From Dokdonia sp. PRO95 (GTDB lineage Bacteria > Bacteroidota > Bacteroidia > Flavobacteriales > Flavobacteriaceae): a DNA stretch of 64,000 nucleotides. The position numbers were made by a program, and so were the translations under genes. Of the stretch, positions 1-21,653 are shown one piece after another (positions within the stretch are counted from its first letter, which is position 1; the number at the start of each line of letters is the position of its first letter). The stretch lies in assembly GCF_000355805.1 (NCBI RefSeq), contig NZ_CM001837.1, positions 817,408 to 881,407 of the forward strand. The letters are read 5' to 3'. The notes below the pieces were generated by a model. That model was not told the DNA's origin. It was given only the letters and a program-made list of their open reading frames with translations, and made no database searches.

Positions 1-3000
1 TAGCTACAGGTGTACTCGGAGCACTTACATCATTTTGTGCTACTGGTGGAACAGCATAAGCTGCACTTACTTTTGTAGGAGTTGTCGCATTACCTTCATT
101 ATCTGATACTATATAAGAGATGTCCATTGGACTACCTTCAAATACTCCTGTACAACTAGCATCAGGAACTCCGGCTCCAGTACACGGTGCGAACGTAATC
201 GCTCCGCTTGAAGGATTAACAGTCCATACTCCTACTCCAGGCTCTACCAAACTTGTCACAGGAACTCCCGGATTTGCTGGGTCTATTATCATTACTGTAG
301 TAGGATCTACAAGATCCCCATCAACATCATTTGCTAATACATCAATTACAGCATCCATGCCTGGCATAACGTCAGTAATCTCATCTACTGTTGCAACAGG
401 CACATAATCAATTGTTACTGTAGCCTGATTAGAAGTATTACCCGCATTATCATCTATTGTATAAGTGGCAGGAGATGTTGGATCATCATTAAAACCAGCT
501 ACTGGTGCAAAACTAATCTCACCGTTTACAGGATTAACTTCCCAAACTCCTTCACCAGGAACTGTGTACCCAATAATATCGCCATCTGCATCCGTTTGTA
601 CCATCGTAGCTCCAGCTGGAACTACTAAGCTCACGCTCGTAACATCTAATGTACCGTCTGCATCATCATCTATTCCAAAACCATTATCGGCGGTTGGATC
701 TAAACTTACTGTAGCTCCTGGAGTACTCGGAGCACTTACATCATTTTGTACCACTGGTGGAACACTAGGAACTGCTCCTTGATTATTTGCATCTGTTGAT
801 AAATCTTGATTATTGGCAGTATTCGGATCATCTTGATCTGCTTGTACAGTAGCACCATTTGAGAAGGCTCCCTCACTATCAATTGTTGCTTCAACTGTTA
901 TTGTCACATTATTGGCAACTCCAGCAGCAATACTTGCTATAGTACAAGGCAATGCAGTACAACCATCCGAAACATTTGTAATTGTCAAATTTTCAGGAAT
1001 ATCTGTAACTACAACATTAGTTGCTTCATCTGGACCTGCATTACTTACTGTTAATGTATAAGTCACTGTACCCCCCACTACGTAAGGACTACTATCAACC
1101 AATACTTTATCAATACTCACATCAGCCTGCGCAATACTAAGCGTGGCTGAACGTGTTTCTGTAAAACACACATTATCATCGTGTGTAATGACAACAAAAT
1201 ATTCTGTACCACCTAAACCTGTTACATCATTTACTATTAATGAATCCGTATTTTCCCCACTATAATTAGTATCTCCTGCAGTAATAAGAGTTCCAGATGT
1301 ATCTGGATCACCTATGTACCACATATAATTTATTCCGGCATTTGCATTTCCAGGAGTTCCATAATCAGGAACACCTGCTGTAAATCCAGTCGAATTATCT
1401 GCGGTTGCCGTAACAGTGAAAGTAGCAGACTCACCTGTTGTAGCTGTTTGGTCAGCAGGTTCCATTGCTGTAACATTAACTTGTGTTGCTACAATTTCAT
1501 TTCCGTTTGCTCCATCATAACCTCCTGTAGTAGGAGCTGTTCCTGTAACTAAACCATTAGCATCAACTATCACAGGTAAAGCACCTAAAATTCCATCTCC
1601 ATTTGGATCCAACCCGCCAGATTCTAAAACATCATTACATAAATCATTATCGCTATCTATATCTCGGTGATCAAAGATGCCATCTCCATCTGTATCTACA
1701 AAAGCTGCACAAAGTGGCACTATACGCCATCCAATATTATCTGCATTTGCTGATGGTAATTGAGAAATAACAATTCTATCTATTGGCTTGTTAATATCGA
1801 ATCTAAAATTAGCCTCCTGTGCAGTACCTCCTAATATAGCAGCTATTGCATCTCCAGATAATGGGTCATATGAAGCCCCAGCTCCAACCGGATTTGCATT
1901 TCCGCTATAAATTACTGCGGGAAACTGAACTTGAACGCCTTCACTATAAAATTTGATATTTTGATTTTCACTATAGGTCCCAGATGCATTTCTACCTAAA
2001 CTCCTCAAGTTAAATTCAAGAGAAAAAATAGGTTCAGAAAATACGATTTCAGTAGACGTCCCTGTAACATTGTTATTACCGTTACGTGACTGCATATCTA
2101 CTTGTATGCCCCCGTCAGTATAATTTGGACTATTGGCGGAAAAAGTTCCAGTTCCTATTATTGTCGTTGATACTGCAGTTACATCACTTACAAAATCTTT
2201 TAAATAAGCAACTAAATCTCCATCATTAGAATTTGCAGCTACTTGATTAAATGAGGAATCTGTAAAATGAATATTTTGAGTGGTAACTGCACTACAATTG
2301 CTATTGTATTCATTCTCATCTAGAATTCCATCATTATCATCATCAAGATCACATGCATTATTTATACCATCACCATCTGCATCATTTGCTGTTATAGTTC
2401 CCGCTATAGCCCCATCTGTACAAGGATCTGGCAACACAGTAAGTGTAGCAGAACGAGTTTCTGTAAAACACACATTATCATCATGGCTTACTACAACAAA
2501 ATACTCAGTACCGTCTAATCCTGTTACATCATTAACCGTAAGAGTATTTGTATTCTCTCCACTATAATTAGTATCTGCTGCAGTAATAAGAGTTCCAGAT
2601 GTATCTGGATCACCTATGTACCACATATAATTTATTCCGGCATTTGCATTTCCAGGAGTTCCGTAATCTGGAACACCTGCTGTAAATCCAGTCGAATTAT
2701 CTGCTGTTGCCGTAATTGTAAACGTAGCAGACTCACCAGTTGTAGCCGTTTGATCGGCAGGTTCCATTGCTGTAACATTAACTTGTGTTGCTACAATTTC
2801 ATTTCCGTTTGCTCCATCATAACCTCCCGTTGCAGGAGAACTTCCTATTACTAGCCCATCACTATCTACCATAGTTGGTATTGCCCCCAATATTCCGTCT
2901 CCATTTGGATCAAGACCGCCAGATTCCAAAACGTCATTACACAAGTCATTATCACTATCTAAATCAAACGAATCAACCACTCCATCTCCGTCAACATCTG

Positions 3001-5275
3001 AACAACCTATTGGAATAAATGCAAAACCTTCAAAATTTGTATTTACATTAGAATCAGTATCGTAATTTAAGACAAAAGGATACGTAGCACCCTCTAAATC
3101 AATATCTAAAGTCCATCTAGAAAACTGAATTTGACGAGTTCCTGAATTTAAGCTTAGTACATCTCCAGAAGAAATCACAGCTCCATCTGCATGACTCACT
3201 ATTTCACCTAGAGGATCATTTAACACTGCAGAGGTACCTCCCGGCCAAGTTAAAGTTATTTCTTTGACTGCATTTTGCCCAGCAAACGTGGTCCCTGGAG
3301 CAGCACTTGCTACTCTCAAACTTGTTAATTGTCCATTCTGTAAATTATCTAATGTTAGTGTTAGATCCATTTCACTCAACCCAGCAAGTTGTGGTCGACC
3401 ATTATCACCTTCATCCCAAGTAACCTGTAGCCCTTCTGTTATCCCACTTATCTGTCTAGTAAGCGTTATTGGCTCCGTGGTTCTCGGATCTACTATAAGT
3501 GTTGGTCTACGTTGAAAAACAAACGGATTTGCGGTAGTAGTCGCCAATTGAAAATCTAAAGTGAATAAATCTCCTGCGTATTGTCCGGATATGGTTTGCG
3601 TACCAACTCCAGTAACTCCTACTGGCAGTAATACTCCACACTCTTCTGTATCTAAAACACCATCATTATCATCATCTAGATCACAGCTATCACTAACACC
3701 ATCACCGTCATTATCTGGATTACCAGATGCTAGTGCATCACACGGATCTGGAAGAAATGTTAACACTGCTGATCTATTTTCGGACACACAAACATTCTCA
3801 TCATGACTAACAACAACAAAATAATCAGTATTGTTTAATCCAGAAGAGTCATTAACTGTTAAAGTATTTGTGTCTGCGCCACTATAATTAGTATCTCCAG
3901 GAGCAATAGGCACTCCTGAAAAATCCGGATCACCTAGATACCATTGATATCTTAAACCTCCATCCGCATTACCAGGAACACTATAAGTAGGTGAACCACC
4001 GCTATAAAACGTAGCTTCATCTGCACTAGCTGATACTGTAAAGCTCACAGAATCACCCTCAAACACAGTTTGATCCATAGGGTTACCAGCAGCAACATTA
4101 ACTTGAACCGCATTCAGCTCATTTCCACTAAGCCCATTATACCCTCCAGCTACCGACCCAGAACCTGTGACACGGCCAGCACCATCAACAGTTGTTGGCA
4201 GCACACCAAGTATTCCATCGCCATCAGGATCTAATCCACCAGACTCTAAAACATCACTACAGCCATCACCATCACTATCATTATCAAAACAATTTGCAAC
4301 ACCATCACCATCTGTATCAAAAGGAGCATCTGTGGTAAATCTAAAACTATCTATTCCGTGAAAATCTGTACCTCCAGTTAATAAGGGATTTGCAGAATTA
4401 TCAAAAACAGACGTCCTCCTTATTTCAACTTGACTTACTGCCTCACGCCCTATAAAACCAATAAAATTTTCAGTATTCTCACCCTGCAATACGTCACCCA
4501 AAGGAACTCCCTGATCACTAAAAACAGGGTAAAGACCTGTAATTCCTGCATTCATAGACAACTCAGGTCCCAACTGATATACAAGAACACCATCTACATA
4601 AACCTCCCAAGTATCAGTAAAGATCTCATCTCCATGATCATTAAAGTCAATCAAATCGAAGCCAAATGCATAAACTGGCGTTGTAAAGTTTATAACAGTC
4701 GAAAACACTAAATTTTGATCTGCCTCTAAATTCGCAGTACCTGGATTAACACCCAAAGTTCGCGTATCACTACCTGACGCCCAAGCTCCATTATTAGTAG
4801 GAAAAACACTATAAGGATTTGCCACAGGATTAGCAGCATCGTTAAACCCACTAACAGTTCCGTTTGAAAATGTGGTACTCGTTAAATTAAGCTCACTCTG
4901 TATGCTCGCCCCAGTGCCGGTAACAGCCACATCCCAGCCGGTTTCAGAAAAACCTAAGCCGTTTGTATTTCCTCCAATAGTAAAAACCTGCTTACCACCT
5001 AAAGTAGTATAAACAATTGCATCAGATTGTACTGCCCCACCAGTAGGAACGACAAACGGACACTCTAAATCATCCAAGATTCCATCATTATCATCATCTT
5101 CATCCACAGTATTAGACACCAGGTCACCATCACAATCTGTAGCAGTACCCACACATTGACCATACAAGGAAGATGTAAAACAACCAAATACCGCAATTAG
5201 GACAAGTATCTTCTTTGAGATAATTGACAATTGCAACTTTTCAATCTGTCCGGAAGGAATAGTAATTTTTCCCAT
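1..5275 (-). CDS. Giant repetitive secreted surface protein (TSP3, Ig-like, DUF11 and CshA-type repeats), 3' end outside window
   Basis: An open minus-strand frame runs from ATG at 5275 to the left edge (1758 codons seen, no stop). It begins with a signal peptide ending near SLYG/Q (about residue 41). Thrombospondin type 3 calcium-binding stretches follow (DxDxDG motifs such as DEDDDNDGILDD near residues 55-70). Three copies of a module of about 435 residues carry DVLESGGLDPxGDGILG and an Ig-like segment with NYSGxxTNTLTVND and YFVVVSHD. A DUF11-type domain (about 1383-1470, TYTLTVSNAGPDEATNV) comes next, then CshA-type fibril repeats (GVWxVNPxxGxITFAP) from about 1500 onward. Such architectures belong to exported adhesins or matrix proteins of Flavobacteriia, often T9SS cargo. 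The C-terminal sorting domain that would prove T9SS export is not in the window. The ligand is unknown. Confidence 0.9.
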   Translation of the reverse strand, partial: MGKITIPSGQIEKLQLSIISKKILVLIAVFGCFTSSLYGQCVGTATDCDGDLVSNTVDEDDDNDGILDDLECPFVVPTGGAVQSDAIVYTTLGGKQVFTIGGNTNGLGFSETGWDVAVTGTGASIQSELNLTSTTFSNGTVSGFNDAANPVANPYSVFPTNNGAWASGSDTRTLGVNPGTANLEADQNLVFSTVINFTTPVYAFGFDLIDFNDHGDEIFTDTWEVYVDGVLVYQLGPELSMNAGITGLYPVFSDQGVPLGDVLQGENTENFIGFIGREAVSQVEIRRTSVFDNSANPLLTGGTDFHGIDSFRFTTDAPFDTDGDGVANCFDNDSDGDGCSDVLESGGLDPDGDGILGVLPTTVDGAGRVTGSGSVAGGYNGLSGNELNAVQVNVAAGNPMDQTVFEGDSVSFTVSASADEATFYSGGSPTYSVPGNADGGLRYQWYLGDPDFSGVPIAPGDTNYSGADTNTLTVNDSSGLNNTDYFVVVSHDENVCVSENRSAVLTFLPDPCDALASGNPDNDGDGVSDSCDLDDDNDGVLDTEECGVLLPVGVTGVGTQTISGQYAGDLFTLDFQLATTTANPFVFQRRPTLIVDPRTTEPITLTRQISGITEGLQVTWDEGDNGRPQLAGLSEMDLTLTLDNLQNGQLTSLRVASAAPGTTFAGQNAVKEITLTWPGGTSAVLNDPLGEIVSHADGAVISSGDVLSLNSGTRQIQFSRWTLDIDLEGATYPFVLNYDTDSNVNTNFEGFAFIPIGCSDVDGDGVVDSFDLDSDNDLCNDVLESGGLDPNGDGILGAIPTMVDSDGLVIGSSPATGGYDGANGNEIVATQVNVTAMEPADQTATTGESATFTITATADNSTGFTAGVPDYGTPGNANAGINYMWYIGDPDTSGTLITAADTNYSGENTNTLTVNDVTGLDGTEYFVVVSHDDNVCFTETRSATLTVLPDPCTDGAIAGTITANDADGDGINNACDLDDDNDGILDENEYNSNCSAVTTQNIHFTDSSFNQVAANSNDGDLVAYLKDFVSDVTAVSTTIIGTGTFSANSPNYTDGGIQVDMQSRNGNNNVTGTSTEIVFSEPIFSLEFNLRSLGRNASGTYSENQNIKFYSEGVQVQFPAVIYSGNANPVGAGASYDPLSGDAIAAILGGTAQEANFRFDINKPIDRIVISQLPSANADNIGWRIVPLCAAFVDTDGDGIFDHRDIDSDNDLCNDVLESGGLDPNGDGILGALPVIVDANGLVTGTAPTTGGYDGANGNEIVATQVNVTAMEPADQTATTGESATFTVTATADNSTGFTAGVPDYGTPGNANAGINYMWYIGDPDTSGTLITAGDTNYSGENTDSLIVNDVTGLGGTEYFVVITHDDNVCFTETRSATLSIAQADVSIDKVLVDSSPYVVGGTVTYTLTVSNAGPDEATNVVVTDIPENLTITNVSDGCTALPCTIASIAAGVANNVTITVEATIDSEGAFSNGATVQADQDDPNTANNQDLSTDANNQGAVPSVPPVVQNDVSAPSTPGATVSLDPTADNGFGIDDDADGTLDVTSVSLVVPAGATMVQTDADGDIIGYTVPGEGVWEVNPVNGEISFAPVAGFNDDPTSPATYTIDDNAGNTSNQATVTIDYVPVATVDEITDVMPGMDAVIDVLANDVDGDLVDPTTVMIIDPANPGVPVTSLVEPGVGVWTVNPSSGAITFAPCTGAGVPDASCTGVFEGSPMDISYIVSDNEGNATTPTKVSAAYAVPPVAQNDVSAPSTPVA
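1141..1660. repeat. Intragenic repeat unit A of the surface-protein gene
   Basis: This segment recurs with high nucleotide identity 1302 nt downstream (2443-2962). The offset is exactly 434 codons, so the reading frame is kept. It covers the Ig-like module and the DVLESGGLDP segment. A shared block of more than 100 nt around 1281-1400 has only a few differences, which suggests recent duplication or gene conversion. Confidence 0.85.
2443..2962. repeat. Intragenic repeat unit B of the surface-protein gene
   Basis: This is the partner of the 1141-1660 copy at a 1302-nt period. A third, clearly diverged copy lies about 1.3 kb further on (about 3740-4260). The order of divergence suggests that units A and B duplicated after the third copy had separated. 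Confidence 0.85.
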
Positions 5276-6076: not shown

Positions 6077-8695
6077 CTAAGAAGTAGCGCCACCTTTCTT
6101 TTTAACAAGCATTCTCTTTATCTCATTGAGCTTCATAAGCGCCTCTACTGGTGTAAGTGTGTCAATATCTATATGCAAAATCTCCTCTTTAATATCTTCT
6201 AGCAATGGATCATCTAGATTAAAAAAGCTAAGCTGCATTTCTTCATCTCCCGCTTCTTTAATCTTACCTGTAAGCTCTTCACTTCCATGGGATTTTTCTA
6301 GCTTCTCCATCATTTTAGTAGCCCTACGCAATACTTGCTGCGGCATTCCCGCCATTTTTGCTACATGAATACCAAAACTGTGGGCGCTACCACCCGGAAC
6401 TAGTTTCCTTAAAAACAATACATTGTTCTTAAGCTCTTTTACAGAGACATTGTAGTTCTTGATGCGTTCAAATGTCTCACACATTTCATTAAGCTCATGA
6501 TAATGCGTTGCAAAAAGCGTTTTAGGCCTCCCCGGATGCTCATGTAAAAACTCACTGATAGCCCAGGCAATCGATATCCCATCATAGGTACTGGTACCAC
6601 GTCCTATCTCATCTAGCAAGACTAAACTGCGATCACTTAAATTATTAAGTATACTCGCCGTCTCATTCATCTCTACCATAAAGGTACTTTCACCCATAGA
6701 GATATTATCACTCGCCCCTACTCTTGTAAAGATTTTATCTACAAGACCTATATGAGCCGCCTGAGCTGGCACAAAACTTCCCATTTGTGCTAGTAAGACT
6801 ATCAATGCCGTTTGTCTCAAGATAGCACTCTTACCAGACATGTTAGGCCCAGTGATCATAATCATTTGCTGGTCATCTCTATCTAAAAAGACATCATTAG
6901 TCACGTAAGCCTCACCCAGTGGTAGCTGCTTTTCTATCACAGGGTGTCGCCCCTCTTTTATATCAATTACCTGCGACTCGTCTAGTGTAGGTCTTACATA
7001 ATTATTTTCCATGGCTAACTGTGTAAATCCCAACAAACAATCTAGCTGTGCAATTTGAGAAGCATTAGCCTGCACTTGAGGAATAAAACTACTCATCCAG
7101 CCTACTAGTGCAACAAAAAGTTGTTGCTCTATCGCTTGGATACGCTCTTCGGCTCCTAGAATTTTACCTTCGTACTCCTTAAGTTCCTCTGTTATGTATC
7201 GCTCTGCATTAACAAGCGTTTGTTTTCTTATCCACTCCTCTGGCACCTTGTCACGATGGGTATTGCGCACCTCTATATAGTATCCAAAAACGTTATTAGA
7301 AGCTATCTTAAGCGATGTGATTCCCGTGCGCTTAGTCTCGCGCTCTAGCATCTGCTCTAGATAATCTTTACCTCCTTGCGACAACGCTCTTAACTCATCT
7401 AGTTCGTTATGAAAGCCCGCAGCGATTGCCCCACCCTTTACAATAGATACTGGAGCGTCTTCAGTCAGAGTTTCTTTTATTTTATCACGCAGCACTGCAC
7501 AATCTTGAAGCTGCTCCCCTATTATTTTGAGAGATTCATTATCCGTACTAAGCGCTAGTCCTTTAATAGGAACAATAGCTTCGAGAGAATTTTTAAGCTG
7601 TATAACCTCTCGCGGACTAATCTTACCAGTAGCAACCTTACTTATGAGACGCTCTAAATCTCCTATTTTTTTAATGTTGGCCTGTATTTTATCAAATATT
7701 TCTCCATTTTCTGAGAGAAAAGTAACCACCTCATGACGACGTTCAATCTCATCGAGGCGCTTGAGAGGCAATGCCAGCCATCGTTTAAGCAAACGACCTC
7801 CCATAGCCGAAGTGGTCTTGTCTATTATATCTATTAACGTAACAGATTTTACTCCAGAAGCTGAGTTATACAACTCTAGATTTCTTATGGTAAAACGATC
7901 CATCCACACGTAATCATCTGCGGCAATACGGCTTATTCTCGTGATATGCTGTAGCTTGTGATGCTGTGTTTCTCCTAAATAATGAAGCGCTGCACCAGCC
8001 GCAACCACCCCTTCTGAAAGATGCTCTACCCCAAACCCTTTTAAAGAATTTACATCAAAGTGCTTATGAAGAGATTCTGTAGCATAGTCTATATGAAATA
8101 CCCAATCTTCTTGGTAAAAAGTATGATAATCTGGGCCATATGCTTCTAAAAATAATTTCTTCTGCTTTTTACAGACTAACAGCTCGCTAGGAGCAAAATT
8201 TTGCAATAATTTATCTACATAAGCTACATCTCCTTGTGCAGTAAGATACTCACCAGTAGACACGTCTAAAAAAGCGACACCTACCTTTTCTTTATTAAAA
8301 AAAACAGCACCAAGGAAATTATTTGTCTTTGCCGAAAGAATATCATCATTCATTGCAACTCCTGGTGTCACAAGCTCTGTCACCCCTCGCTTTACTATTT
8401 TCTTAGTCTGCTTTGGATCTTCTAGTTGATCACAAATAGCTACTCTACAACCTGCTTTTACAAGCTTAGGCAAGTAAGTATTTAAAGAATGATGTGGGAA
8501 GCCCGCAAGCTCCGTTCGATCACCACCATTATTTCGACTCGTTAATGTTATGTTGAGAATAGCAGCTGCTTTTACAGCATCTTCTCCAAAGGTTTCATAA
8601 AAATCTCCTACTCTAAAAAGCAACAAAGCATCTGGGTATTTTGTTTTAATACCATTGTATTGCTGCATTAAGGGGGTCACTTTTTTCTTAGCCAA
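6077..8695 (-). CDS. mutS: DNA mismatch repair ATPase MutS
   Basis: The product is 872 residues, normal for MutS. The mismatch-wedge motif F32-Y33-E34 (GDFYETF) is in the N-terminal mismatch-binding domain. The connector, core and clamp domains follow, and the C-terminal ABC-type ATPase has Walker A GPNMSGKS (616-623) and Walker [11 protein letters not shown] near 700. It recognises mispaired bases and recruits MutL. The apparent start is TTG at 8695, giving [14 protein letters not shown]; no in-frame ATG precedes it, and the next ATG (M10) would trim nine residues. The gene stands alone, convergent to the tRNA unit. Confidence 0.97.
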
Positions 8696-9230: not shown

Positions 9231-12209
9231 ATGAAACAAAAGTACCCATTACTCAAAATGGTCTATTTCTTGTTATTTTTAATTCCTTGTGCCCTAATGG
9301 GACAGTCTGTTGTTACGGGAGTTATTAAAGATGCTGGAAATAACCCAATTCCCTTTGTCAATGTTATTGAAAAAGGAACTTCAAACGGAACTACATCAGA
9401 TTTTGATGGTAATTACTCGATAACACTAAACGGTAATTCTGGAACCTTAGAATTTTCATACTTAGGGTATGCAACACAAGAACAAACAATTTCAAGTTCA
9501 CAGACACTGAATGTGACTCTTGAAGAATCATCAGAGTCGCTAGATGAAATAGTAATTTCTGGTCTAGCCTCTTCTGTAAAGAGATCGAATGCTGCAAATG
9601 CAGTAGCATCCGTATCAGCAGAGCAAATTACTGGTACCACACCACCACCTACGTTAGATGGGGCTTTGTATGGTAAATTTGCTGGAGCACTCGTGAGTCA
9701 GAATTCTGGAGCACCAGGTGGAGGACTTTCTATTAAGCTTCGTGGTGCAACCTCTATCCAAGGTAACACTCAACCGTTATACATTATAGATGGTATCTAT
9801 GTAGATAATTCATCTATTTCTGCTGGTCTTAATGCAGTTTCTGCCGCATCTGCTGGAGGAAGTGCTTCAAATCAAGATAACCCTACAAACAGAATAGCAG
9901 ATATAAATCCGGATGATATTGAAAATATTGAAATACTGAAAGGAGCATCTGCTGCAGCAATATATGGTTCTAGAGCTGCTGCCGGGGTTGTTATTATCAC
10001 AACTAAGAAAGGTAAAGCTGGAGAAACTCAGTTTAAATTTGGTCAATCTTTTGGGTGGACACAAGTAACAAGACTTTTAGGTTTACGCAATTACAATGAG
10101 CAACGCGTAGAGGATAGCTTTGGTGCAGAAGCAGTACCACTTTTTGTAGCCGCTAGAGATGAGGGAAGATTAGTAGATTATGAAGAAGAGATATACGGCG
10201 AGAAAGGTCTTATAAGCAAAACTAATTTTAGCATGAGCGGTGGAGATGAAAAAACACGTTTCTACGCTGGTGTGACTCATAGTGATGAAAATGGTATTGT
10301 AAAAAACACAGGCTATGAAAAGACTTCACTTCGTCTTAACTTAGATCATAGAGCTACAGACTTCTTAAAAGTATCTCTTAACACAAACTACATCAACTCA
10401 AAATCTGATCGTGGTTTCTTTAATAATGACAACTCAGGTACTACTATTGGTGTGACTTTAACGGGTACAACCCCTTGGTTACAGTTGTTTCCAGATGAAA
10501 ATGGTGTATATCCAGACAATCCATCTGGTGCTTCAAACCCTCTACAGACAAGAGATAGAGTAACTAATGAGGAAATAGTAGATCGTTTTATTGTTGGTGC
10601 TTCTGCAAATCTAGATATCTTCAAAAAAGAAAAATCAAGTCTTGAATTAATTCTACGTGGAGGTCTAGATACTTATGGACAGAAATCTAGAGCTATTTTC
10701 CCTAAAGATTTACAATTTCAAAAACCAGCTAATGGTGGTCAAAATGGGGTTGCTGTTCAAGGAGATACTCAAAACAGAAACTACAATCTAGCGGCTTTCT
10801 TGGTACATAATTACAGAACAGATAATGATTTATCTTTTAGAACTCAAGCCGGTGTAACAAGAGAGTATTTTGACAGAAATACACAACTTATTACGGCTAG
10901 CGGACTTGTCGCTTCAGAAACTAATGTTGACCAAGCAGCTAACACTGGAACTAACCAGTTTAGATTACTTCAAGAAGATGCAGGATTTTTTGTACAAGAA
11001 GAAATCAACTTTCAAGATAAGCTTATAGGAGCAATAGGATTAAGAGGAGACAAGTCTTCGAATAATGGAGATGCAAACGAGCTTAACTATTACCCTAAAG
11101 CATCACTTGCAGCAAACTTTAATGAGTTTGATTTCTGGAAAGAGGATAGCTTTGTAGACAAATTTAAGCTTCGTGTAGCCTATGGAGAGGCAGGTAACTT
11201 TGCTCCTTTTGGAGCATTATTTACATCATACACTTCATTCTCTACAAATGATCTATTAGGAATAAGCCTAGTAGGTGTGCGTGGAGATGGTGATTTAAGC
11301 CCTGAGCGCCAAAAAGAATTAGAATTTGGTACAGACCTTAGTATTCTTGATGGTAAAGTAGATTTTTCTGCAACATACTATATTAAGACTGTTGATGATT
11401 TAATTCTTAACTCAGCACTACCTCCATCTTCTGGATTTACGAGCGAATTTGTAAATGCAGGTGAATTACAAAACAAAGGACTTGAATTATCATTAAATAG
11501 TAATATTATTGAGTCAGAGGATTTTGTGTGGAATGCTAGTGTAAACTGGTTTAAGAACACCTCAAAAATCACTCGTCTTGATGTTGATCCTTTTAACGTA
11601 GGTGCATTTGGAGCAACACTTGGTACATTTAGAATTGAAGAAGGTTCTAGTGCTACACAGATAGTAGGAATAGGCCCTAATCCAGGTGCAAATGGATTCC
11701 AAAGGTTTGGAGATTCAGAGCCAGATTTTCAAATGGCGCTTAACAATAGCCTTCAATACAAAGATTTTCAATTATCATTCTTATGGCAATGGAAAAAAGG
11801 TGGAGATAACATTAACCTAACTACATTATTATCTGATTTAAACGGTACAAGTGCAGATTATGATGATTCTGGACTTGATCCTTCTGGAACTCTTGCAAAT
11901 GGTCCATATAGAGTGAGCCAGCTTGGTTCATCTGCAGATGTATTTGTAGAAGATGCATCTTACTTAAGATTGCGTGAAGTAGGATTATACTATACTATAC
12001 CTACAACAACTTTAGAAAACTTCTTAGGAGGAAACATAGACAATATTAAAGTAGGATTTTCAGGAACAAACCTAATCAACATATTTGATTACAACAGTTA
12101 TGATCCAGAAGTTTCAAACTTTGGTGGTGGCGGTATCTTTACTGGCGTAGAGGTTACACCTTTCCCATCTTCTAAGCGATTCTTATTTAACCTAGCTGTA
12201 AATTTTTAA
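9231..12209 (+). CDS. SusC/RagA-family TonB-dependent outer-membrane receptor
   Basis: The product is 992 residues. A signal peptide ends near ALMG/Q (about residue 24). A carboxypeptidase-regulatory-like beta-sandwich follows (about 26-112, with DFDGNYSI), then the plug domain with LRGATSIQGNTQPLYIIDG and the SusC-type GASAAAIYGSRAAAGVVII segment near 240-260. The rest is a 22-strand-type barrel ending in an aromatic residue (NLAVNF). SusC proteins import oligosaccharides or peptides with a SusD lipoprotein lid. The susD-like gene follows after 9 nt, so the two are one operon. No glycoside hydrolase or other degradative gene is linked, so the substrate cannot be read from context. Confidence 0.95.
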   Translation: MKQKYPLLKMVYFLLFLIPCALMGQSVVTGVIKDAGNNPIPFVNVIEKGTSNGTTSDFDGNYSITLNGNSGTLEFSYLGYATQEQTISSSQTLNVTLEESSESLDEIVISGLASSVKRSNAANAVASVSAEQITGTTPPPTLDGALYGKFAGALVSQNSGAPGGGLSIKLRGATSIQGNTQPLYIIDGIYVDNSSISAGLNAVSAASAGGSASNQDNPTNRIADINPDDIENIEILKGASAAAIYGSRAAAGVVIITTKKGKAGETQFKFGQSFGWTQVTRLLGLRNYNEQRVEDSFGAEAVPLFVAARDEGRLVDYEEEIYGEKGLISKTNFSMSGGDEKTRFYAGVTHSDENGIVKNTGYEKTSLRLNLDHRATDFLKVSLNTNYINSKSDRGFFNNDNSGTTIGVTLTGTTPWLQLFPDENGVYPDNPSGASNPLQTRDRVTNEEIVDRFIVGASANLDIFKKEKSSLELILRGGLDTYGQKSRAIFPKDLQFQKPANGGQNGVAVQGDTQNRNYNLAAFLVHNYRTDNDLSFRTQAGVTREYFDRNTQLITASGLVASETNVDQAANTGTNQFRLLQEDAGFFVQEEINFQDKLIGAIGLRGDKSSNNGDANELNYYPKASLAANFNEFDFWKEDSFVDKFKLRVAYGEAGNFAPFGALFTSYTSFSTNDLLGISLVGVRGDGDLSPERQKELEFGTDLSILDGKVDFSATYYIKTVDDLILNSALPPSSGFTSEFVNAGELQNKGLELSLNSNIIESEDFVWNASVNWFKNTSKITRLDVDPFNVGAFGATLGTFRIEEGSSATQIVGIGPNPGANGFQRFGDSEPDFQMALNNSLQYKDFQLSFLWQWKKGGDNINLTTLLSDLNGTSADYDDSGLDPSGTLANGPYRVSQLGSSADVFVEDASYLRLREVGLYYTIPTTTLENFLGGNIDNIKVGFSGTNLINIFDYNSYDPEVSNFGGGGIFTGVEVTPFPSSKRFLFNLAVNF

Positions 12210-12218
12210 AATAAAAAG

Positions 12219-13574
12219 ATGAAAAAATATATAACCAAAAGCCTACTCGCATTAAGTATTTGTGCTGGGCTTTATTCTTGTGACGTACAAGAATATTCAG
12301 ACTTAAATAACCCCGAGGTTGATGCCTTTGAAGAGAATCTAACTCGCGGTGACTTACAAGATCTAGTAGGCGGAGTGCTCTATAGTTCCCGTGTAGGCTT
12401 AGGAAATTACTTTGATAATTGTGGAGTTATAGGTAGAGAATACTATAGATTCTCAAGCTCAGACCCTAGATATACAAGTGATTTGCTAGGTGGAGAAAAT
12501 GCTGTCTTAGACAATAATACCTTCTATATTACAACTCCCTGGGCTGCTAGATATAGAACCGTAAAAAACGCTAACCTTATCTTAGGGTTTATTGAAGGTC
12601 AAGATCTATCTGCAATATTTACTGCAGAGGAACTTAGCGCAACAACTGGATTTTTAAAAACAATGATTGCTCATGAGTTATTACTTAATCTAAACTTAGT
12701 AGACGAGGGAGGCATACGTGTAGACGTTGCAGACGAAGCAAACTTAGGACCATTTGTATCAAAAAGCGAGGCACTAACCTTTATAAGAACTACTTTAGCA
12801 GATGCTGCTACAGATCTTAATGGTGGAGGTGATGAATTTCCGTTTCAACTTTCAGATGGATTTGAAAGTTTTAAAGTTCCAACAGATTTTGCTTTAGTAA
12901 GTAATGCCCTTGCCGCAAGAATAGCAGCATATCAAGGGGATTTTGCAGGAGTGTTATCATTACTTGATGATTCTTTCCTAAGGTTAGATAATGTAAACCT
13001 CGATCTTGGTGTTTATCACAACTTTTCACAAGATCAGACGGATCTTCTTAACCCTATGTTTTTTGCTGTCAACTCATCTACTGCAGGTGCACGTATCGCG
13101 CAACCATCTTTTATCACAGATGCAGAAGCAGGAGATGCTAGACTTAATAAAGTAGTACTACGTAGTGCTGTAGATGATGCTGGCAACACTATTGCAAACC
13201 CATTAACACTTGACGGTCTTACTGGTGAATATGACGTGTTCCGTTACACTTCTAATGTTGATGATATTCCAATCATTCGTAACGAAGAATTATTATTACT
13301 TTATGCAGAGGCAAATATTACAATAGATCCTGCCGAAGCGATAGTTGCACTTGACTTAATCAGACAAAGTGCTGGCCTCGATCCTTATGCTGGAGCTATG
13401 GATGCTGCTTCTCTTACAGATGAGATGCTTACGCAACGTAGGTACTCACTCTATTCAGAAGGACACAGATGGATTGATGTACGTCGTTATAATCGTCTTG
13501 ATGAGCTCCCTATAGACAGAGCAAATGATGATGTATTCTCTCAATTTCCAATACCGCTTACTGAGAATCAATAA
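12219..13574 (+). CDS. SusD/RagB-family substrate-binding lipoprotein
   Basis: The product is 451 residues. It is an outer-membrane lipoprotein with lipobox GLYSC (Cys21), followed by the SusD-like N-terminal segment and the RagB/SusD TPR fold. The typical C-terminal motif RRYSLYSEGHRWIDVRRYN lies near residues 407-425. It caps the SusC channel and binds nutrient at the cell surface. It is somewhat shorter than many SusD proteins (about 500 or more residues) but has intact ends. It starts 9 nt after the susC-like stop and is followed by a strong terminator. Confidence 0.93.
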   Translation: MKKYITKSLLALSICAGLYSCDVQEYSDLNNPEVDAFEENLTRGDLQDLVGGVLYSSRVGLGNYFDNCGVIGREYYRFSSSDPRYTSDLLGGENAVLDNNTFYITTPWAARYRTVKNANLILGFIEGQDLSAIFTAEELSATTGFLKTMIAHELLLNLNLVDEGGIRVDVADEANLGPFVSKSEALTFIRTTLADAATDLNGGGDEFPFQLSDGFESFKVPTDFALVSNALAARIAAYQGDFAGVLSLLDDSFLRLDNVNLDLGVYHNFSQDQTDLLNPMFFAVNSSTAGARIAQPSFITDAEAGDARLNKVVLRSAVDDAGNTIANPLTLDGLTGEYDVFRYTSNVDDIPIIRNEELLLLYAEANITIDPAEAIVALDLIRQSAGLDPYAGAMDAASLTDEMLTQRRYSLYSEGHRWIDVRRYNRLDELPIDRANDDVFSQFPIPLTENQ

Positions 13575-13714: not shown

Positions 13715-16700
13715 TTATGCTGCTTCTGGCAGCTCTTTTTCTTCTTCTACGGTTTCTTTACCTCCTCGTATTTTGAACTTAATACGATATACTATGTAAT
13801 ATAGCAATGGTACGATAATAAGAGTAAGGAACGTAGCTATGATTAATCCGTAGATTACTGTCCACGCTAGTGGTCCCCAGAAAATCACGTTATCACCTCC
13901 TACATAAATCCCTGCATCAAACTCTTGGAACAATCCAAAGAAGTCTATGTTAATACCTATTGCAAGCGGTATTAGACCAAGAACGGTTGTGATGGCAGTA
14001 AGCAATACTGGGCGTAAACGCGCTCTACCTCCTTCTATAATCAATTCTTGCATTGTCTTTTTATCAAGTAATTGCTTGTCCTCAAGACCTAGCGCCACCT
14101 CTTTTCTGTCTACTAGCAACTGCGTGTAGTCCAGAAGTACCACCCCATTATTTACTACAATACCAGCAAGTGATATAATACCCATCATAGTCATTATAAT
14201 CACGAACGGAGCTCCACTTATAATAATACCTCCAAAAACTCCTATAAAGCTCAAGAAGATTGCAATCATAATAATGACTGGTTTTGATATAGAGCTAAAC
14301 TGGAAAATAAGTAAGAAGAAAATTAACGCAAGACCTCCAAAGAAGGCACTTACTAAGAAGTTCATTTCTTTAGCTTGTTCTTCAATTTGTCCTGTATAAT
14401 TCACCTTGATATCCTTAGGCACACCATCAAAGTTTTTCATCTCTTCTTGAATGGCTGCAACTACCACACCCGCATCTGTAAATCCAGCAGCGAGGTTAGA
14501 ATATACCGTTACCACACGTTTTGAATCTCTGTGCTTAATCGCGCTAAAAGATGATGTGTTTTTTGTAGTAGTAACAGCACTCACCGGCACTTCTTTTACT
14601 TGCCCAGTTGCTGGGTCTCTAAACGTAATATTCTGATTAAATAAAGCAGATTTATCATAACGTTGCTCTTCATTAAAGCGCACGTAGATATCATAATCTT
14701 CTCCGTCTTTCTTATATACTCCAGCCTTATCACCAAAGATAGAACGACGCAGCTGCATACCCACTTGACCTGTTGCTACACCTAGCTCTCCAGCCTTCTG
14801 GCGATCTACAATGACCTCTGTACCTGGTTTACCTCTATTTACATTAATCTTAAGCTCATCTACACCTGGCACGTTACGGCTGTTGATATAGTTACGCATT
14901 TGCTCTGCTGCGATAATGAGTTCTTGGTAATCTTTACCTTCTAGCTCGATGTTAATAGGGTATCCTTGTGGTGGTCCTGCAGCATCTTTTTCTACTGTAA
15001 TCACCACTCCTGGGTACACACCTCTCACGGCATCTTGCACTTTAAAGCGTAGCTCTTCACTATCTGCCTCGTTACGGTACTTGTACTCACGCATCGTTGC
15101 CGTAATTTTTGCTTTATGAGGCATCTCGGCAGCACTACCGCCATCTGTTTGAGGGTTACCTGCACCTTCACCTACTTGTGATACAGAAGTTTCTACAAGA
15201 GCATTGTAATCTTCGCCCTCTAGATATGCTTCGTCATTAAATACTTTAAAGACGCGCTGCTCTATTTCTTTAGTAATGGCATTTGTTTTCTCGATGGCTG
15301 TTCCTTCTGGATACTCGACATACACCGTAATCTGGTTAGGCTTATTATCTGGGAAGAACTCTATAGCGGTACGACCTGCACCTATAGAACCTCCAAATGC
15401 CATAAAAGTTAAAATTAACAGTAGAAAAATACCTCCTACAAATGCAATAGGTCTGTAGCCTCTAATAGACCACCCTAAGAAGTTTTTATACACCTTCTCA
15501 AGCCACGTAAGGAATCGCTGCTGAAAAACATCGGCGGCACCTTTAAGTAGGTATTTGTAGATCCACATAAAGATAATAGTCGCTAGCACTAGACTTCCTA
15601 GACCGCGTATGCTTCCACCTAAAAATAATATCATTAACCCAATAGGCAACATAATGAGTGATGTGCGTATGAGAAATTTTCGCGAAAGCGCCTTCTCCTC
15701 TGTATTCATAAACTGTGATACGAGCATCGAGTTTATAAATATTGCCACAAATAATGATGAACCTAGTACCACAGATAATGTGATAGGGAAGTAAATCATA
15801 AACTGTCCCATAATACCTGGCCATAATCCTAACGGTACAAAGGCTGCTACGGTTGTAAGTGTAGAAATAATAATAGGGAAAGCAATCTCTCCGATACCTT
15901 TTTTGGCCGCTTCTATGCGTCCCATACCTTCTTCATCCATAAGGCGGTATACGTTTTCTACCACCACAATCCCGTTATCTACAAGCATACCTAGACCCAT
16001 AATGAGGGCAAAAAGTATCATTGTATTCATCGTATAACCCATTAAATTAAGGATCATAAAACTCATAAACATAGACATAGGGATCGCAAAACCTACAAAG
16101 AGTGCGTTTTTAAACCCTAAGAAAAACATAAGTACACCTACCACAAGTATAATCCCGAAGATGATATTGTTTACAAGGTCGTTTACTTGGTTTTCTGTTT
16201 TGGCACTCTGATCATTTGCTGTACGTACGACTACATCTGGAGGAAAGACCTCTGCCGTGGCGTTTTCGATAATCTCGTTGATTTGCTCAACAGCTTCAAT
16301 CATATTTTCGCCAGAACGTTTCTTTACATCTAGCATTACTACTGTCTCGCTTATCTCCTCATCATCTACGGTGTCTCCATCATAAAGCGTGAGGTCACGC
16401 GCATAAGTTGTTTTATCTTCTTCTGTAAATGATACCGTTGCGATATCCTTTAAGTATATCGCTCCATTTTCTGATTTAATTACAAAGTCTTCAAGCTCTT
16501 CTGGGCTTTGAATCTCTCCTATAACGCGTATGTTACGACGCTGCCCACTGCTTATAAGGTTACCTGCAGAGAGGGTCATATTCTCATTGCCTATAGAAGC
16601 AAGTATGTCGTTAAAACTTACTTGTGCAGCAATCATTTTATACACATCTACCGCTACTTCTACCTCGCGTTCTTGAGCACCACGTATGGTTGCCTCCTTG

Positions 16701-17260
16701 ATTTCTTTAAGGCTCTCAATCTCGTCTTGCAGGTACTCTGCATACTCCTTGAGTTTTATAGTAGGGTAGTTACCAGATACGTTTACATTAAGAATAGGTG
16801 TCTCTTCTGAGATACTTAGGTCAAAAACATTAGGCTCTACCTTTGCGTTGTTAAACGTAGGCCAGTCCTCATTTGCTGTTTCTGAGTCTACCTCATCCTT
16901 AACACGTTGCTTTGCAACTTGTACATCTACGCCTTCTTTAAACTCTACTGTGATGATCGCATAATCTTCTTGTGAGGTAGATAATACTTCTACCACGTCA
17001 GAAAGATTCTGCAGTTTATCTTCTAGAGGATCTACTATGAGACGTTCTATATCTTCGGCAGTGTTACCTGGGTAAGGTGCAGAGATATAAATTTTAGTCT
17101 CATTAATTTCTGGAAAGTTCTCACGAGCCATCCCTAGGTAGGCTCCCATCCCTAAGGCAAGAAACAGCGCCATAAGAACGTAAATAATCGTAGGATTATC
17201 TATCGCCCAACTTGAAATCGCAAACTCCTTGTTTACATTTTTCTTTTTCTTATCTGTCAT
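13715..17260 (-). CDS. RND-family efflux transporter permease (AcrB/MexB-like)
   Basis: The product is 1181 residues with the RND layout: one N-terminal helix (about 20-43), a periplasmic porter loop, a helix bundle, a second porter loop and a final helix bundle. It drives proton-coupled export across the envelope with the adjacent fusion protein and TolC-like channel. In the TM4 region the motif reads GMLVDNGIVVVEN, so the aspartate pair of AcrB (D407/D408) appears as D428-N429. The central region carries about 100 residues of extra hydrophobic sequence (about 500-600) compared with AcrB. It is last in the operon, 3 nt after the fusion protein. Palindrome copy 4 lies inside this gene. The substrate is unknown. 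Confidence 0.93.
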   Translation of the reverse strand: MTDKKKKNVNKEFAISSWAIDNPTIIYVLMALFLALGMGAYLGMARENFPEINETKIYISAPYPGNTAEDIERLIVDPLEDKLQNLSDVVEVLSTSQEDYAIITVEFKEGVDVQVAKQRVKDEVDSETANEDWPTFNNAKVEPNVFDLSISEETPILNVNVSGNYPTIKLKEYAEYLQDEIESLKEIKEATIRGAQEREVEVAVDVYKMIAAQVSFNDILASIGNENMTLSAGNLISSGQRRNIRVIGEIQSPEELEDFVIKSENGAIYLKDIATVSFTEEDKTTYARDLTLYDGDTVDDEEISETVVMLDVKKRSGENMIEAVEQINEIIENATAEVFPPDVVVRTANDQSAKTENQVNDLVNNIIFGIILVVGVLMFFLGFKNALFVGFAIPMSMFMSFMILNLMGYTMNTMILFALIMGLGMLVDNGIVVVENVYRLMDEEGMGRIEAAKKGIGEIAFPIIISTLTTVAAFVPLGLWPGIMGQFMIYFPITLSVVLGSSLFVAIFINSMLVSQFMNTEEKALSRKFLIRTSLIMLPIGLMILFLGGSIRGLGSLVLATIIFMWIYKYLLKGAADVFQQRFLTWLEKVYKNFLGWSIRGYRPIAFVGGIFLLLILTFMAFGGSIGAGRTAIEFFPDNKPNQITVYVEYPEGTAIEKTNAITKEIEQRVFKVFNDEAYLEGEDYNALVETSVSQVGEGAGNPQTDGGSAAEMPHKAKITATMREYKYRNEADSEELRFKVQDAVRGVYPGVVITVEKDAAGPPQGYPINIELEGKDYQELIIAAEQMRNYINSRNVPGVDELKINVNRGKPGTEVIVDRQKAGELGVATGQVGMQLRRSIFGDKAGVYKKDGEDYDIYVRFNEEQRYDKSALFNQNITFRDPATGQVKEVPVSAVTTTKNTSSFSAIKHRDSKRVVTVYSNLAAGFTDAGVVVAAIQEEMKNFDGVPKDIKVNYTGQIEEQAKEMNFLVSAFFGGLALIFFLLIFQFSSISKPVIIMIAIFLSFIGVFGGIIISGAPFVIIMTMMGIISLAGIVVNNGVVLLDYTQLLVDRKEVALGLEDKQLLDKKTMQELIIEGGRARLRPVLLTAITTVLGLIPLAIGINIDFFGLFQEFDAGIYVGGDNVIFWGPLAWTVIYGLIIATFLTLIIVPLLYYIVYRIKFKIRGGKETVEEEKELPEAA
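15678..15687. repeat. TTTCGCGAAA palindrome, copy 4 (10-bp core only, in RND gene)
   Basis: Only the TTTCGCGAAA core plus one arm (GCGC on the right) is present. On the minus strand it is read as ALSRK near residues 525-529 of the transporter. It is either a decayed or an incomplete copy. Confidence 0.8.
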
Positions 17261-17263
17261 CGC

Positions 17264-18433
17264 TTAGTATGTTAAGATTTTTACTGGCTGGTTATCTTTT
17301 ACAGATCTCGCACCTTCTACAATGATTTTATCTCCCACTTCTAGACCAGATAGTACTTCTATGTTAGGTCCTTGTGATTTACCTGTGGTGATGATTTTTT
17401 GCTGTGCTACCATTTCGTCCGCTTTCGCGAAAGCGGTATACACAAATTGCTCACCAGCTGCATTTTCATTAATCACATTGAGAGGGATTAAAATTGCACT
17501 TTCTGCCGTATAGTCGTTGATAGAAAGTCTCGCTGTAAGATTAGGTTTTACCTTTCCATCTTTATTAGGAACATCTACTTCTATCGCAAAACTTCTGTTT
17601 GATGGTTTGATATAATTACCCGTCTGGCGCACGGTAGTCTCTACAGACTCTCCTAGTACTGGAAACTCTACTTTTACCTTTTTACCAGCAGTTACTGTAG
17701 GCAGGTAGCTTTCTGGAATCTCTGCTGCTACATACATATTATCAAGATTTACGATTCTGAATAATGCCATACCTGGAGCAACCACTGTACCTTGGTCTGT
17801 AATCACCTCATCAATTACTCCTGAAAATGGAGCTGTAACCGTTGTTTTACCCAGCTGACTTCTAATCTGGCTCACCATATTTTGTGATGACTCATATTGT
17901 GTTTTTGCCTGTAGGTATTGTATTTCTGACCCTATTTTTTGATCCCAAAGACGTTGCTGGCGCTCAAAAGTAGTTTTTGCAAGTGCTAGTTGAGATTCCA
18001 TTTGTGCTACTTGACTGCTTAGACCACCGTCATCTATACGAGCCAGTGTTTGCCCTTTACGCACGCGCTGTCCTTCTTTTACAACCACACGAGATAAGGT
18101 ACCTTGATACTCTGGGTAGATAAGTACATTTTGCTTAGTCTCTACATTACCTTGCACCTCTATAAAGTGATTAAACAAGGTGTCTTTTACCGTCATTGTG
18201 GTAATAAGAACCTCTTTTTTCTCTCTAGGATTCTTTTCTTCTAGCACCTTTTCTAATTGTGCTAGTTGATCATTAGTAGCCGTGATCTCTTCCTTAAGTG
18301 CTTTTTGTTTTGCCTGTAACTCCTCTACAGATCCAGACTCTAGAAGGGCCTCTACAGATTTTCCGTTACTGTCTCCACCGCAAGAAGCTAGCGCGATACT
18401 TAAGATGGCAAGTGTGATATATTTTTTCATCAT
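17264..18433 (-). CDS. RND efflux membrane fusion (periplasmic adaptor) lipoprotein
   Basis: The product is 389 residues. The lipobox ALASC places Cys18 as the lipidated residue. A coiled-coil segment (about 30-75) is followed by the barrel-sandwich hybrid domain (VVKEGQRVRKGQTLARID), an alpha-hairpin (LAKTTFERQQRLWDQK), the second lipoyl half (VTAPFSGVID) and a beta-barrel domain. It links the RND pump to the TolC-like channel. It sits between the two, 3 nt before the permease. Palindrome copy 5 lies in frame and encodes AFAKA near residues 333-337, in a loop region. Confidence 0.94.
   Translation of the reverse strand: MMKKYITLAILSIALASCGGDSNGKSVEALLESGSVEELQAKQKALKEEITATNDQLAQLEKVLEEKNPREKKEVLITTMTVKDTLFNHFIEVQGNVETKQNVLIYPEYQGTLSRVVVKEGQRVRKGQTLARIDDGGLSSQVAQMESQLALAKTTFERQQRLWDQKIGSEIQYLQAKTQYESSQNMVSQIRSQLGKTTVTAPFSGVIDEVITDQGTVVAPGMALFRIVNLDNMYVAAEIPESYLPTVTAGKKVKVEFPVLGESVETTVRQTGNYIKPSNRSFAIEVDVPNKDGKVKPNLTARLSINDYTAESAILIPLNVINENAAGEQFVYTAFAKADEMVAQQKIITTGKSQGPNIEVLSGLEVGDKIIVEGARSVKDNQPVKILTY
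17419..17436. repeat. TTTCGCGAAA palindrome, copy 5 (18 bp, in fusion-protein gene)
   Basis: A perfect palindrome CCGCTTTCGCGAAAGCGG is read on the minus strand as T-AFAKA-D within the adaptor lipoprotein gene. Confidence 0.95.
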
Positions 18434-18477
18434 TGTAATATTACTGATTGGTACTATTTGGATTCTCTTTTTAAAAA

Positions 18478-19818
18478 CTAGTTGTTTGTATAGTTAGGCA
18501 CATTAAGAATAGTCTCAAGCTCTGCTTTTGTGGTTACAATTTGTAGCATTGCCTGTATTAATTCTTGCTGCACTTGGTAAAGCTGTGTTTGTGCTTGTCT
18601 TAAATCAAAACTCGTACTAAGCCCTTCTCTAAACTTTACTTGGTTTTTATTTTCAATGCGCTCTGCAAGTTTGATATTCTTCAGCGCAGTGTTGTAGTTA
18701 TCTATCGCAAGCTCGTGATCACTTTTTGCAGATGCATAAGCAAGTTTTATCTGTTGCTCTGTCTCCTCTCTTTGTGTTGCTGCTTGATCTAGCGCAATCT
18801 CTGCCTGCGCTGTTCTTGCATTACGCATACCAGAACTAAAAATAGGAATGTTAAGCTGGAACCCAGTAATAGACTGTGCAAACCACTTCTCATCACTATC
18901 AAAAAAGTTAAACTCGTTACGCCCTGCAAAGGTTCCTACGTTTATAAACGCTCCTAGTGTAGGTAAGGCCTTGCTCTTTTCTAGCTTAAGCTCTAGTGCT
19001 CTTTGCTCATTAAGATTATTTACAATCTTATAGTCTACATTTTGCTCAATGTTTACCGTATCATTAAGTAATCCTAGTGCTGGTACAGCAAGTGACTCTA
19101 GGCTATCTTTAAGAATCGTCTCCTCATCTACCCCTACACCTATTGCGAGGTTAAACATTTGCTTTGCAATCACCACCATACGCTTTGCATTTGCTCGCTG
19201 ATTTTGAAGCGACAAATAAGTGATTTGTAACTGCTCTACATCTTCCTCTTCTGCAAAACCATTTTCAAAAATGAGTTTTGTTTCCTTAAGATTATCTTCA
19301 AGGTTTGCAATGTTTCGATCTAAAATTGCTACACTTTCTTGAGCAAGTAGCACACCGCCGTAAGCGTTTATGACTCCTTTGCGTACTTCAAGTTGTGTTT
19401 TTTCATTTGCATTTTTAGAATAGTCTAGAAAGGTCTTTGCAGCTTGTAGCCCTACAAGGTATGAACCATCAAAAATGAGCTGACTCAATGTAGCGGTGGC
19501 AGTAGCATTTTGCTGTGTTCCAAAAACTACAGGTATAAAAGTACCAGGCTCTCCTCCAGTAAACTCGGCTGGTATAAGCTGTGTAGGCTGCTTGATTTGA
19601 TAATTATAATCTAGACTAGCACTTACTTGTGGCAACCCAGTCGCTGTGGTCTCCCACTTTTGCTTTATTGCCTTTGCGATATCACGACGGCTATTTATTG
19701 CTGTGTAGTTGCTATCTAGAGCAAAAGTCACAGCCTCTTCTACAGTAAAGCTTCTAGTCTGTGCGGTCACACCTACACTAGCAAGAAGCATTACAGCTAT
19801 ATATAATCTCTGTATCAT
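18478..19818 (-). CDS. TolC-family outer-membrane efflux channel
   Basis: The product is 446 residues with a signal peptide ending near VTAQ (about residue 20). It has two outer-membrane efflux protein repeats, each with long coiled-coil helices (for example LKETKLIFENGFAEEEDVEQ and the C-terminal half near 360-425). It forms the trimeric exit duct for the RND pump. Its ATG overlaps the TetR stop by one base (TAATG), which indicates translational coupling and one operon. The spacing to the next gene is 44 nt. Confidence 0.94.
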   Translation of the reverse strand: MIQRLYIAVMLLASVGVTAQTRSFTVEEAVTFALDSNYTAINSRRDIAKAIKQKWETTATGLPQVSASLDYNYQIKQPTQLIPAEFTGGEPGTFIPVVFGTQQNATATATLSQLIFDGSYLVGLQAAKTFLDYSKNANEKTQLEVRKGVINAYGGVLLAQESVAILDRNIANLEDNLKETKLIFENGFAEEEDVEQLQITYLSLQNQRANAKRMVVIAKQMFNLAIGVGVDEETILKDSLESLAVPALGLLNDTVNIEQNVDYKIVNNLNEQRALELKLEKSKALPTLGAFINVGTFAGRNEFNFFDSDEKWFAQSITGFQLNIPIFSSGMRNARTAQAEIALDQAATQREETEQQIKLAYASAKSDHELAIDNYNTALKNIKLAERIENKNQVKFREGLSTSFDLRQAQTQLYQVQQELIQAMLQIVTTKAELETILNVPNYTNN

Positions 19819-20423: not shown

Positions 20424-20445
20424 AGTCAAGGCGCGAAGATACGCA

Positions 20446-20488
20446 GGAAACTTTTTAAGTTTTTAAAGTTTCCGTTAACTTTAGTTAA
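20446..20488. promoter_or_regulatory. Candidate TetR operator (two inverted repeats)
   Basis: GGAAACTTT (20446-20454) and AAAGTTTCC (20465-20473) form a 9-10-9 inverted repeat 23 nt upstream of the tetR ATG. A second one, TTAAC-TTTA-GTTAA, lies at 20475-20488. The position in the tetR/polyprenyl-synthase divergent region and the dimeric symmetry fit a TetR-family operator. Confidence 0.55.
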
Positions 20489-20516
20489 AATTTAACAACT
20501 GTAAGTTTTTACTGTG

Positions 20517-20532
20517 CGCTTTCGCGAAAGCG
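20517..20532. repeat. TTTCGCGAAA palindrome, copy 6 (16 bp)
   Basis: A perfect CGCTTTCGCGAAAGCG followed by TAA lies in the divergent tetR/polyprenyl-synthase region, next to the candidate operator but distinct from it in sequence. Confidence 0.95.
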
Positions 20533-20584
20533 TAATAGGGCATAATCTCCTTTTATCACTTATTTTTACAAAAAATTGCCATTT

Positions 20585-21559: not shown

Positions 21560-21653
21560 CGAGCACACACCTTTTACAAGCAGTCCCCACGTAAACTTTT
21601 AACTAAGAGTTTATTATGGCACTCCGTTTGCTTAAATTTACGAGAACTAATCA

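Follow-up and report, generated by a model that had tools for sequence, protein, structure and literature searches.

Does a giant, repeat-rich surface-protein gene owe its internal repeats to recent duplication, and do such repeats allow its length to change by recombination? The question is raised by the left end of the window (the whole 64,000-nucleotide stretch of DNA analysed here), which is carried by the 3,305,093-base single-contig genome of Dokdonia sp. PRO95. Translation confirms that the minus-strand frame at positions 2–5275 of the window starts with an ATG at 5275, stays open for 1758 codons and runs off the left edge, as the initial annotation had stated. Beyond this edge the frame does not stop early; it continues without a stop to a total of 2,636 aa, ends at G000:C1:814772 and carries a type B C-terminal sorting domain (CTD) with an adjoining PorP/SprF-like gene, both of which the initial annotation had predicted. 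Its proposal of a giant modular surface protein is supported. Because a run of 100 N lies inside the stalk, outside the window, both the stalk and the gene length are provisional in PRO95.

The gene is located between mutS (6077..8695, minus strand; NF003810, 1018.5 bits), its upstream synteny anchor, and a porP–ompA pair, as it also is in three congeners with single-contig genomes, referred to here as G006, G008 and G016. Its N-terminal part (5060..5275, this and all following features on the minus strand; aa 1–72 of the translation) comprises the start codon, a hydrophobic signal-like segment and a first TSP3-like segment, with a nucleotide identity of 95.8% to G008 and 82.2% to G006. This is followed by head 1, a putative binding domain (4328..5059, aa 73–316; 62% amino acid identity to head 1 of G008), module A (3761..4318, aa 320–505), head 2 (3002..3640, aa 546–758), module B (2441..2998, aa 760–945), head 3 (1700..2320, aa 986–1192) and module C (1139..1696, aa 1194–1379), each module consisting of a TSP3-like segment and an Ig-like domain. 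Module C adjoins a DUF11 stalk domain (785..1138, aa 1380–1497), after which the CshA-type stalk starts with a unit of type a and part of one of type b (2..784, aa 1498–1758; 711-nt offset) and continues left of the window, where it is succeeded by a region of TSP3 units and the type B CTD.

Profile searches support these assignments to different extents. DUF11, which had been proposed for the first 1758 codons, is confirmed by Pfam (PF01345, 67.6 bits, cut-off 24.6), and the domain has a dS of 0.00 to that of G008. The TSP3 repeats are recognized left of the window, where four stretches match TSP3_bac (PF18884) above cut-off with 53.1 bits; within the window part there is no TSP3 profile match at E≤0.01, and the assignment rests there on a visible Asp-rich pattern. 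Likewise, the CshA-type repeats are well supported in the G008 ortholog (TIGR04225, CshA_fibril_rpt; 403.3 bits in 11 stretches), but two pieces of the PRO95 gene score 27.9 and 48.7 bits, both under the cut-off of 60, and no CshA model of Pfam is listed at E≤0.01. The 27 identical bases at 12–38 and 723–749, at an offset of 711, are as the initial annotation gave them. We disregarded matches to PF17617, PF06226, PF20333 and PF07385, as well as to NCBIfam models NF053691, NF033765, NF041410 and NF047446, considering them driven by composition or off topic.

Although the module has no Pfam Ig match, the Ig-like domains proposed for it are borne out by structure prediction. In the best of five models of module B built from 4 sequences (mean pLDDT 65.4; 48.5–54.1 for the other four), the Ig-like half reaches a pLDDT of about 90 and the TSP3 half stays under 50. 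Model residues 72–186 superimpose onto 2iep_B with a Z-score of 11.5 (rmsd 2.1, 89 aligned), and the predicted Ig beta-sandwich resembles Ig domains of MuSK (Z 11.5) and titin (Z 11.3), with many others at Z 9–11, in a VIA-align listing that re-examines Foldseek's matches only and may omit other families.

The C-terminus matches CHU_C with 88 bits (cut-off 27) and TIGR04131 with 40.2 bits (cut-off 35). Directly downstream lies a PorP/SprF-family gene of 339 aa (PF11751, 303.2 bits; TIGR03519, 271.3 bits), so that the gene displays two features of a type B substrate of the type IX secretion system (T9SS), namely a C-terminal TIGR04131/CHU_C domain and a PorP/SprF-like gene immediately after it. 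The next gene encodes a 649-aa PorE-like protein whose OmpA (53.1 bits) and PD40 (46.5 bits) matches are above cut-off, with CarboxypepD_reg (32.1, cut-off 32.3) and TPR_2 (23, cut-off 27) below it; against the curated PorE model NF052230 the protein scores 315.6 bits, under the cut-off of 600. According to the available text of two studies on F. johnsoniae (PMC12618676, PMC9143113), the shuttle gene is commonly found directly downstream of type B substrates, a PorE-like neighbour accompanies static anchoring, and the mobile type B substrates examined have no such neighbour. By analogy with F. johnsoniae and P. gingivalis as described there, the CTD would be picked up and retained by the PorP-like protein, and the PorE-like protein, whose gene adjoins porP here, predicts static anchoring to peptidoglycan rather than movement in gliding.

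The starts of the three modules are separated by 1320 and 1302 nt, the latter being the period previously reported; at this offset, however, the alignment covers only about 558 nt (1139–1696 against 2441–2998), the rest of each period being unrelated. Nor are modules B and C nearly identical at the DNA level, as had been claimed: over the 558 nt they share 84.6% identity, with 86 differences and a dS of 0.57, and the listed 60-nt windows range from 70 to 98%. Their longest identical run is 85 nt, in the core; none of 20,000 codon permutations gave one as long. Module A is 63–64% identical to both.

Modules A and B each have a closer match in another species than within the gene: B shares 91.0% identity with the only module of G006, compared with 84.6% with its neighbour C, and A shares 93.9% with the first of the G008 modules. 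Within the module, B is close to G006 over codons 31–138 (dS 0.05–0.14), and C is close to G008 and G016 over codons 139–186 (dS 0.03–0.06), with which its last 48 codons share 98.6 and 97.2% identity, respectively; for contrast, mutS has a dS of 0.78 in the comparison with G008 and of about 2 in that with G016. The low dS of the module cores may derive in part from purifying selection, as the cores are conserved. With G008 as reference, a maximum chi-square analysis locates the break at codon 141, a result that none of 20,000 permutations reached, and comparing G006 with G016 against the same reference gives codon 141 again (4/20,000); weaker breaks are obtained with G006 (codon 7, 17/20,000) and G016 (codon 110, 58/20,000) as references. 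A tree of 18 rows, from which one G027 row and the weaker matches of the genome search with module B were omitted, gives no resolved order among B, C, the modules of G006 and G016 and the last module of G008. From their sequences, modules B and C look like recombination mosaics rather than products of the recent internal duplication put forward by the initial annotation, which the short homology and the pairing of B with G006 and of A with G008 led us to reject.

The heads that the modules separate are unrelated to one another and diverge more than any other part of the gene, stalk and anchor being kept. In 299 sampled genomes of the family, which include PRO95 itself and few of its congeners, head 1 has distant relatives in five other genomes (33–36% identity), head 2 matches four (best 44% over 147 residues) and head 3 matches none at E≤0.001. 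In the genes of G006, G008 and G016, nothing corresponds to head 2, and the sole counterpart of head 3 is a weak match to head 1 of G008 (28% over 102 aa). No Pfam family matches the heads at E≤0.01; against solved-structure sequences they yield E values of 0.11 or worse, with none at E≤0.01 for P0001, and a single-sequence model of head 1 was poor (pLDDT 43.5) and set aside.

Within the genus Dokdonia the locus seems to be present in some genomes and absent from others. A search with module B matched 25 of 59 genomes, PRO95 included, with G006, G008 and G016 giving the strongest matches outside PRO95. The stretch after mutS was read in 13 of the 18 genus genomes, namely PRO95, these three congeners and nine more, leaving out G002, G007 and G009 (contig ends within about 2 kb), G005 (about 4 kb) and G001. 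The full set of module, DUF11, CshA, CTD, PorP and OmpA is found in five of the 13: PRO95, G006, G008, G016 and G017, although in G017 the gene region contains an N run and the frame is interrupted; mutS is the neighbour of the gene in the latter four as well. Partial sets consist of a CshA-bearing frame running off its contig in G003, a CTD match alone (52%) in G011, and, in G010, a frame of 3,397 aa that contains an N run, has no module or CshA match and ends in a CTD 80% identical, followed by a PorP that is 82% identical over the 142 residues read. There is no such match in the stretch read of G004, G012 (3 kb read), G013, G014 and G015; a module is located on another contig in G010, G014 and G015, and G004 has no module match genome-wide. 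The latter genome (L117, L118) is a single contig in which mutS is present and no domain or partner-gene match occurs in the 37 kb after it.

Orthologs at this mutS-linked locus differ almost two-fold in length, from 3218 aa in G006 through 5060 aa in G016 to 6091 aa in G008, and in their number of modules (one in G006, two in G008, one in G016, compared with three in PRO95). The stalk holds three arrays, in the same order in these three genes: 711-nt blocks of two units (ab), 1050-nt blocks of three units (cde) and 456-nt TSP3 blocks (t456). In G006, G008 and G016, respectively, there are 1, 6 and 1 complete copies of the ab block, 3, 7 and 5 complete copies of the cde block, and 4, 3 and 7 near-identical copies of the t456 block, in addition to diverged ones. 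The suggestion that such repeats permit length change by recombination is supported by these differences in copy number and length, which, as the comparison covers the genes of four species read over their length with one genome each, represent variation between species and not between strains.

Blocks of one array are 91.6–100% identical in the three congeners; the PRO95 gene, as far as it is readable, showed no near-identical array. Mean identity of the 1050-nt blocks is 94.1, 96.7 and 99.7% within G006, G008 and G016 and 89.4–90.4% between genomes. The 711-nt blocks average 94.6% within G008 and 82.0–89.8% between genomes, with some G006–G008 pairs reaching 93.7% and thereby exceeding the lowest pair within G008 (91.6%). 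The 456-nt blocks average 96.0, 99.0 and 96.8% within G006, G008 and G016 and 87.4–88.4% to G016, but between G006 and G008 they average 96.0%, no lower than within G006 (96.0%). Judging from these identities, homogenisation by species would fit the 1050-nt array, mostly fit the 711-nt one and only in part fit the 456-nt one.

A second line of comparison concerns exchange between species, for which mechanically called ORFs of 150 aa or more were compared one by one. Between PRO95 and G008, dS amounts to 0.00–0.14 in DUF11, the CshA parts, the CTD, porP and ompA, the lowest value for any neighbouring ORF compared being 0.24; for porP and ompA (0.13–0.14) the distance is not far under the lowest neighbours (0.24–0.27). 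The same parts have a dS of 0.11–0.53 to G006, and for the CshA_a piece the two species are at the same distance (0.11, 0.12). That DUF11, CTD, porP and ompA are nearer to G008 than any neighbouring ORF suggests that the C-terminal part of the gene and the two partner genes may have been exchanged between species.

From these observations we infer that the gene probably encodes a T9SS-secreted, statically wall-anchored fibrillar adhesin of periscope-like type, with recombination altering both its tips and the length of its stalk. The PorP/SprF-like protein of the adjacent gene would bring the type B CTD to the outside and hold it there, and would itself be tied to peptidoglycan by the PorE-like protein. 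The TSP3 base, CshA-type stalk, DUF11 and Ig-like modules would then hold the variable N-terminal heads off the cell. Unequal recombination between the near-identical 711-, 1050- and 456-nt units would lengthen or shorten the stalk, and recombination in the shared TSP3+Ig module and adjoining domains, both intragenic and between Dokdonia species, would allow heads to be added, removed or exchanged. More tentatively, the module itself may be the recombination handle, a short conserved DNA cassette common to unrelated heads, through which species gain, lose or trade the tips of a T9SS-carried protein at the mutS-linked locus, the length of its stalk being adjusted independently by the three arrays further downstream.

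Some of the same data could be explained otherwise. That the three modules arose by recent tandem duplication within the PRO95 genome would agree with the exact 1302-nt offset and with the 85-nt run shared by B and C, but homology extends over a mere 558 of 1302 nt at a dS of 0.57, B and A are closer to modules of other species and the intervening heads are unrelated, making this origin highly improbable. It is also very unlikely that the differences in repeat number are assembly artefacts: PRO95 does have a 100-N run in its stalk, G017 has another in its gene region, and in several draft congeners a module lies where a contig ends or on a short one of 3–4 kb; however, G006, G008 and G016 are single-contig genomes in which the stretches read contain no N, and collapse or duplication errors would not yield different heads or mosaic modules. 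For the module copies in particular an artefact is unlikely because they differ from one another; the stalk length of PRO95 itself, given its 100-N run, may be affected by one.

The function of the protein admits two further readings. As an SprB-like adhesin that the gliding motor moves over the cell, with repeats of purely structural significance, it would belong to the same secretion class, having a type B CTD and an adjacent PorP/SprF; yet a PorE-like gene follows porP, and the F. johnsoniae mobile substrates covered in the accessible parts of PMC12618676 and PMC9143113 lack one, so that we regard this as distinctly unlikely. A calcium-stiffened scaffold or matrix protein that binds nothing specifically, with heads acting as spacers, would account for the TSP3 repeats and for heads that have neither a Pfam match at E≤0.01 nor a match to solved structures beyond chance; against this, it is the heads that diverge most, with stalk and anchor retained, a pattern that binding tips would be expected to show, and we give the scaffold a small chance.

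In Periscope Proteins such as SasG, Rib and Sgo_0707, according to the available text of PMC8201768 and PMC9704523, a stalk built from highly identical folded repeats carries a functional domain at its N-terminal end, and protein length varies with the number of repeats, an architecture that the Dokdonia protein would share. Unlike them, the Dokdonia gene encodes a type B type IX CTD and combines three different arrays in one protein, and the variation observed here is between species, not strains; neither "bacteroid" nor "type ix" occurs in the text available for PMC8201768, nor "bacteroid" or "t9ss" in that for PMC9704523. CshA-type fibrillar and CshA NR2-like adhesins, as far as covered in the accessible text of PMC10952558, share CshA-type stalk units, N-terminal non-repeat domains and domain shuffling, and some NR2-like members, reported in Bacteroidetes, carry CHU_C anchors; the Dokdonia protein differs from them in having heads without a Pfam match and stalk units arranged in two- and three-unit blocks. 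SprB/SprF and Fjoh_3952/3951/3950, in the portions available of PMC12618676 and PMC9143113, resemble the locus in that a cognate PorP/SprF-like shuttle is encoded directly downstream of a type B substrate; for Fjoh_3952 a PorE-like gene comes next, as in Dokdonia. A comparison of repeat arrays does not appear in those portions.

The locus thus looks like a known kind of system in an apparently new setting, with clear comparative evidence of variation in length and tip. In the open-licence literature, neither repeat-array variation in a type IX-secreted adhesin nor head exchange via a shared module was found in print. If correct, our reading would bring a protein that marine flavobacteria secrete by the type IX route under the concept of length-variable stalk adhesins, and a single locus would then serve to track stalk length, the identity of the tips and exchange across species side by side. 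Both the exchange of heads and the length of the stalk are testable against attachment to algae or particles in named Dokdonia strains, and the PorE-like neighbour leads to a testable prediction of static, wall-tied anchoring.

The initial annotation had also considered it notable that no copy of TTTCGCGAAA occurs in the first 5.3 kb. This 10-mer palindrome is about 100-fold over-represented in the genome (1018 copies in 3,305,093 bases, against 10 for the reversed control) and abundant in all 18 Dokdonia genomes searched (481–1195 copies against 9–23 for the control). The window contains 18 sites, for example at 5878, 8796, 13631, 20520 and 28811, and 11 of these fall in the 7.7% of the sequence that lies between ORFs of at least 150 aa (P about 1e-8). 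Its absence from the 5,275-base stretch is confirmed, but the chance of finding none there is 0.197 at genome density, and P is 0.09 over the whole gene; since the motif moreover favours DNA outside ORFs, no significance was attached to its absence. The three orthologous genes (9,657, 18,276 and 15,183 nt) also lack the motif, their repeats not being independent.

Other parts of the window show features of their own. Over about 15 kb with 10 ORFs (13718–28741), PRO95 is near G016 (dS 0.08–0.42) and distant from G006 and G008 (0.46 or more, mostly 0.9–2.8), the reverse being the case for the flanking ORFs compared, and from these distances the region looks like an imported or exchanged segment. 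Two genes at 9231–13574 have nucleotide identities of 91.2 and 79.6% in G006 and 83.5 and 78.1% in G016, and their best matches in the G008 stretch reach only 61.5 and 52.4%, as if the genes had been replaced there. Genome-wide, there are 12 CHU_C and 7 PorP/SprF matches, and six of the former adjoin one of the latter; the one PorP/SprF-family gene that stands alone lies inside the window (59512–60513, 239.8 bits), with no CHU_C match beside it. In F. johnsoniae, the available text of PMC12618676 describes 12 type B proteins, nine with an adjacent SprF-like gene and the other three served by one orphan shuttle; the gene at 59512–60513 is a candidate shared shuttle for the six CHU_C proteins without a PorP/SprF neighbour.
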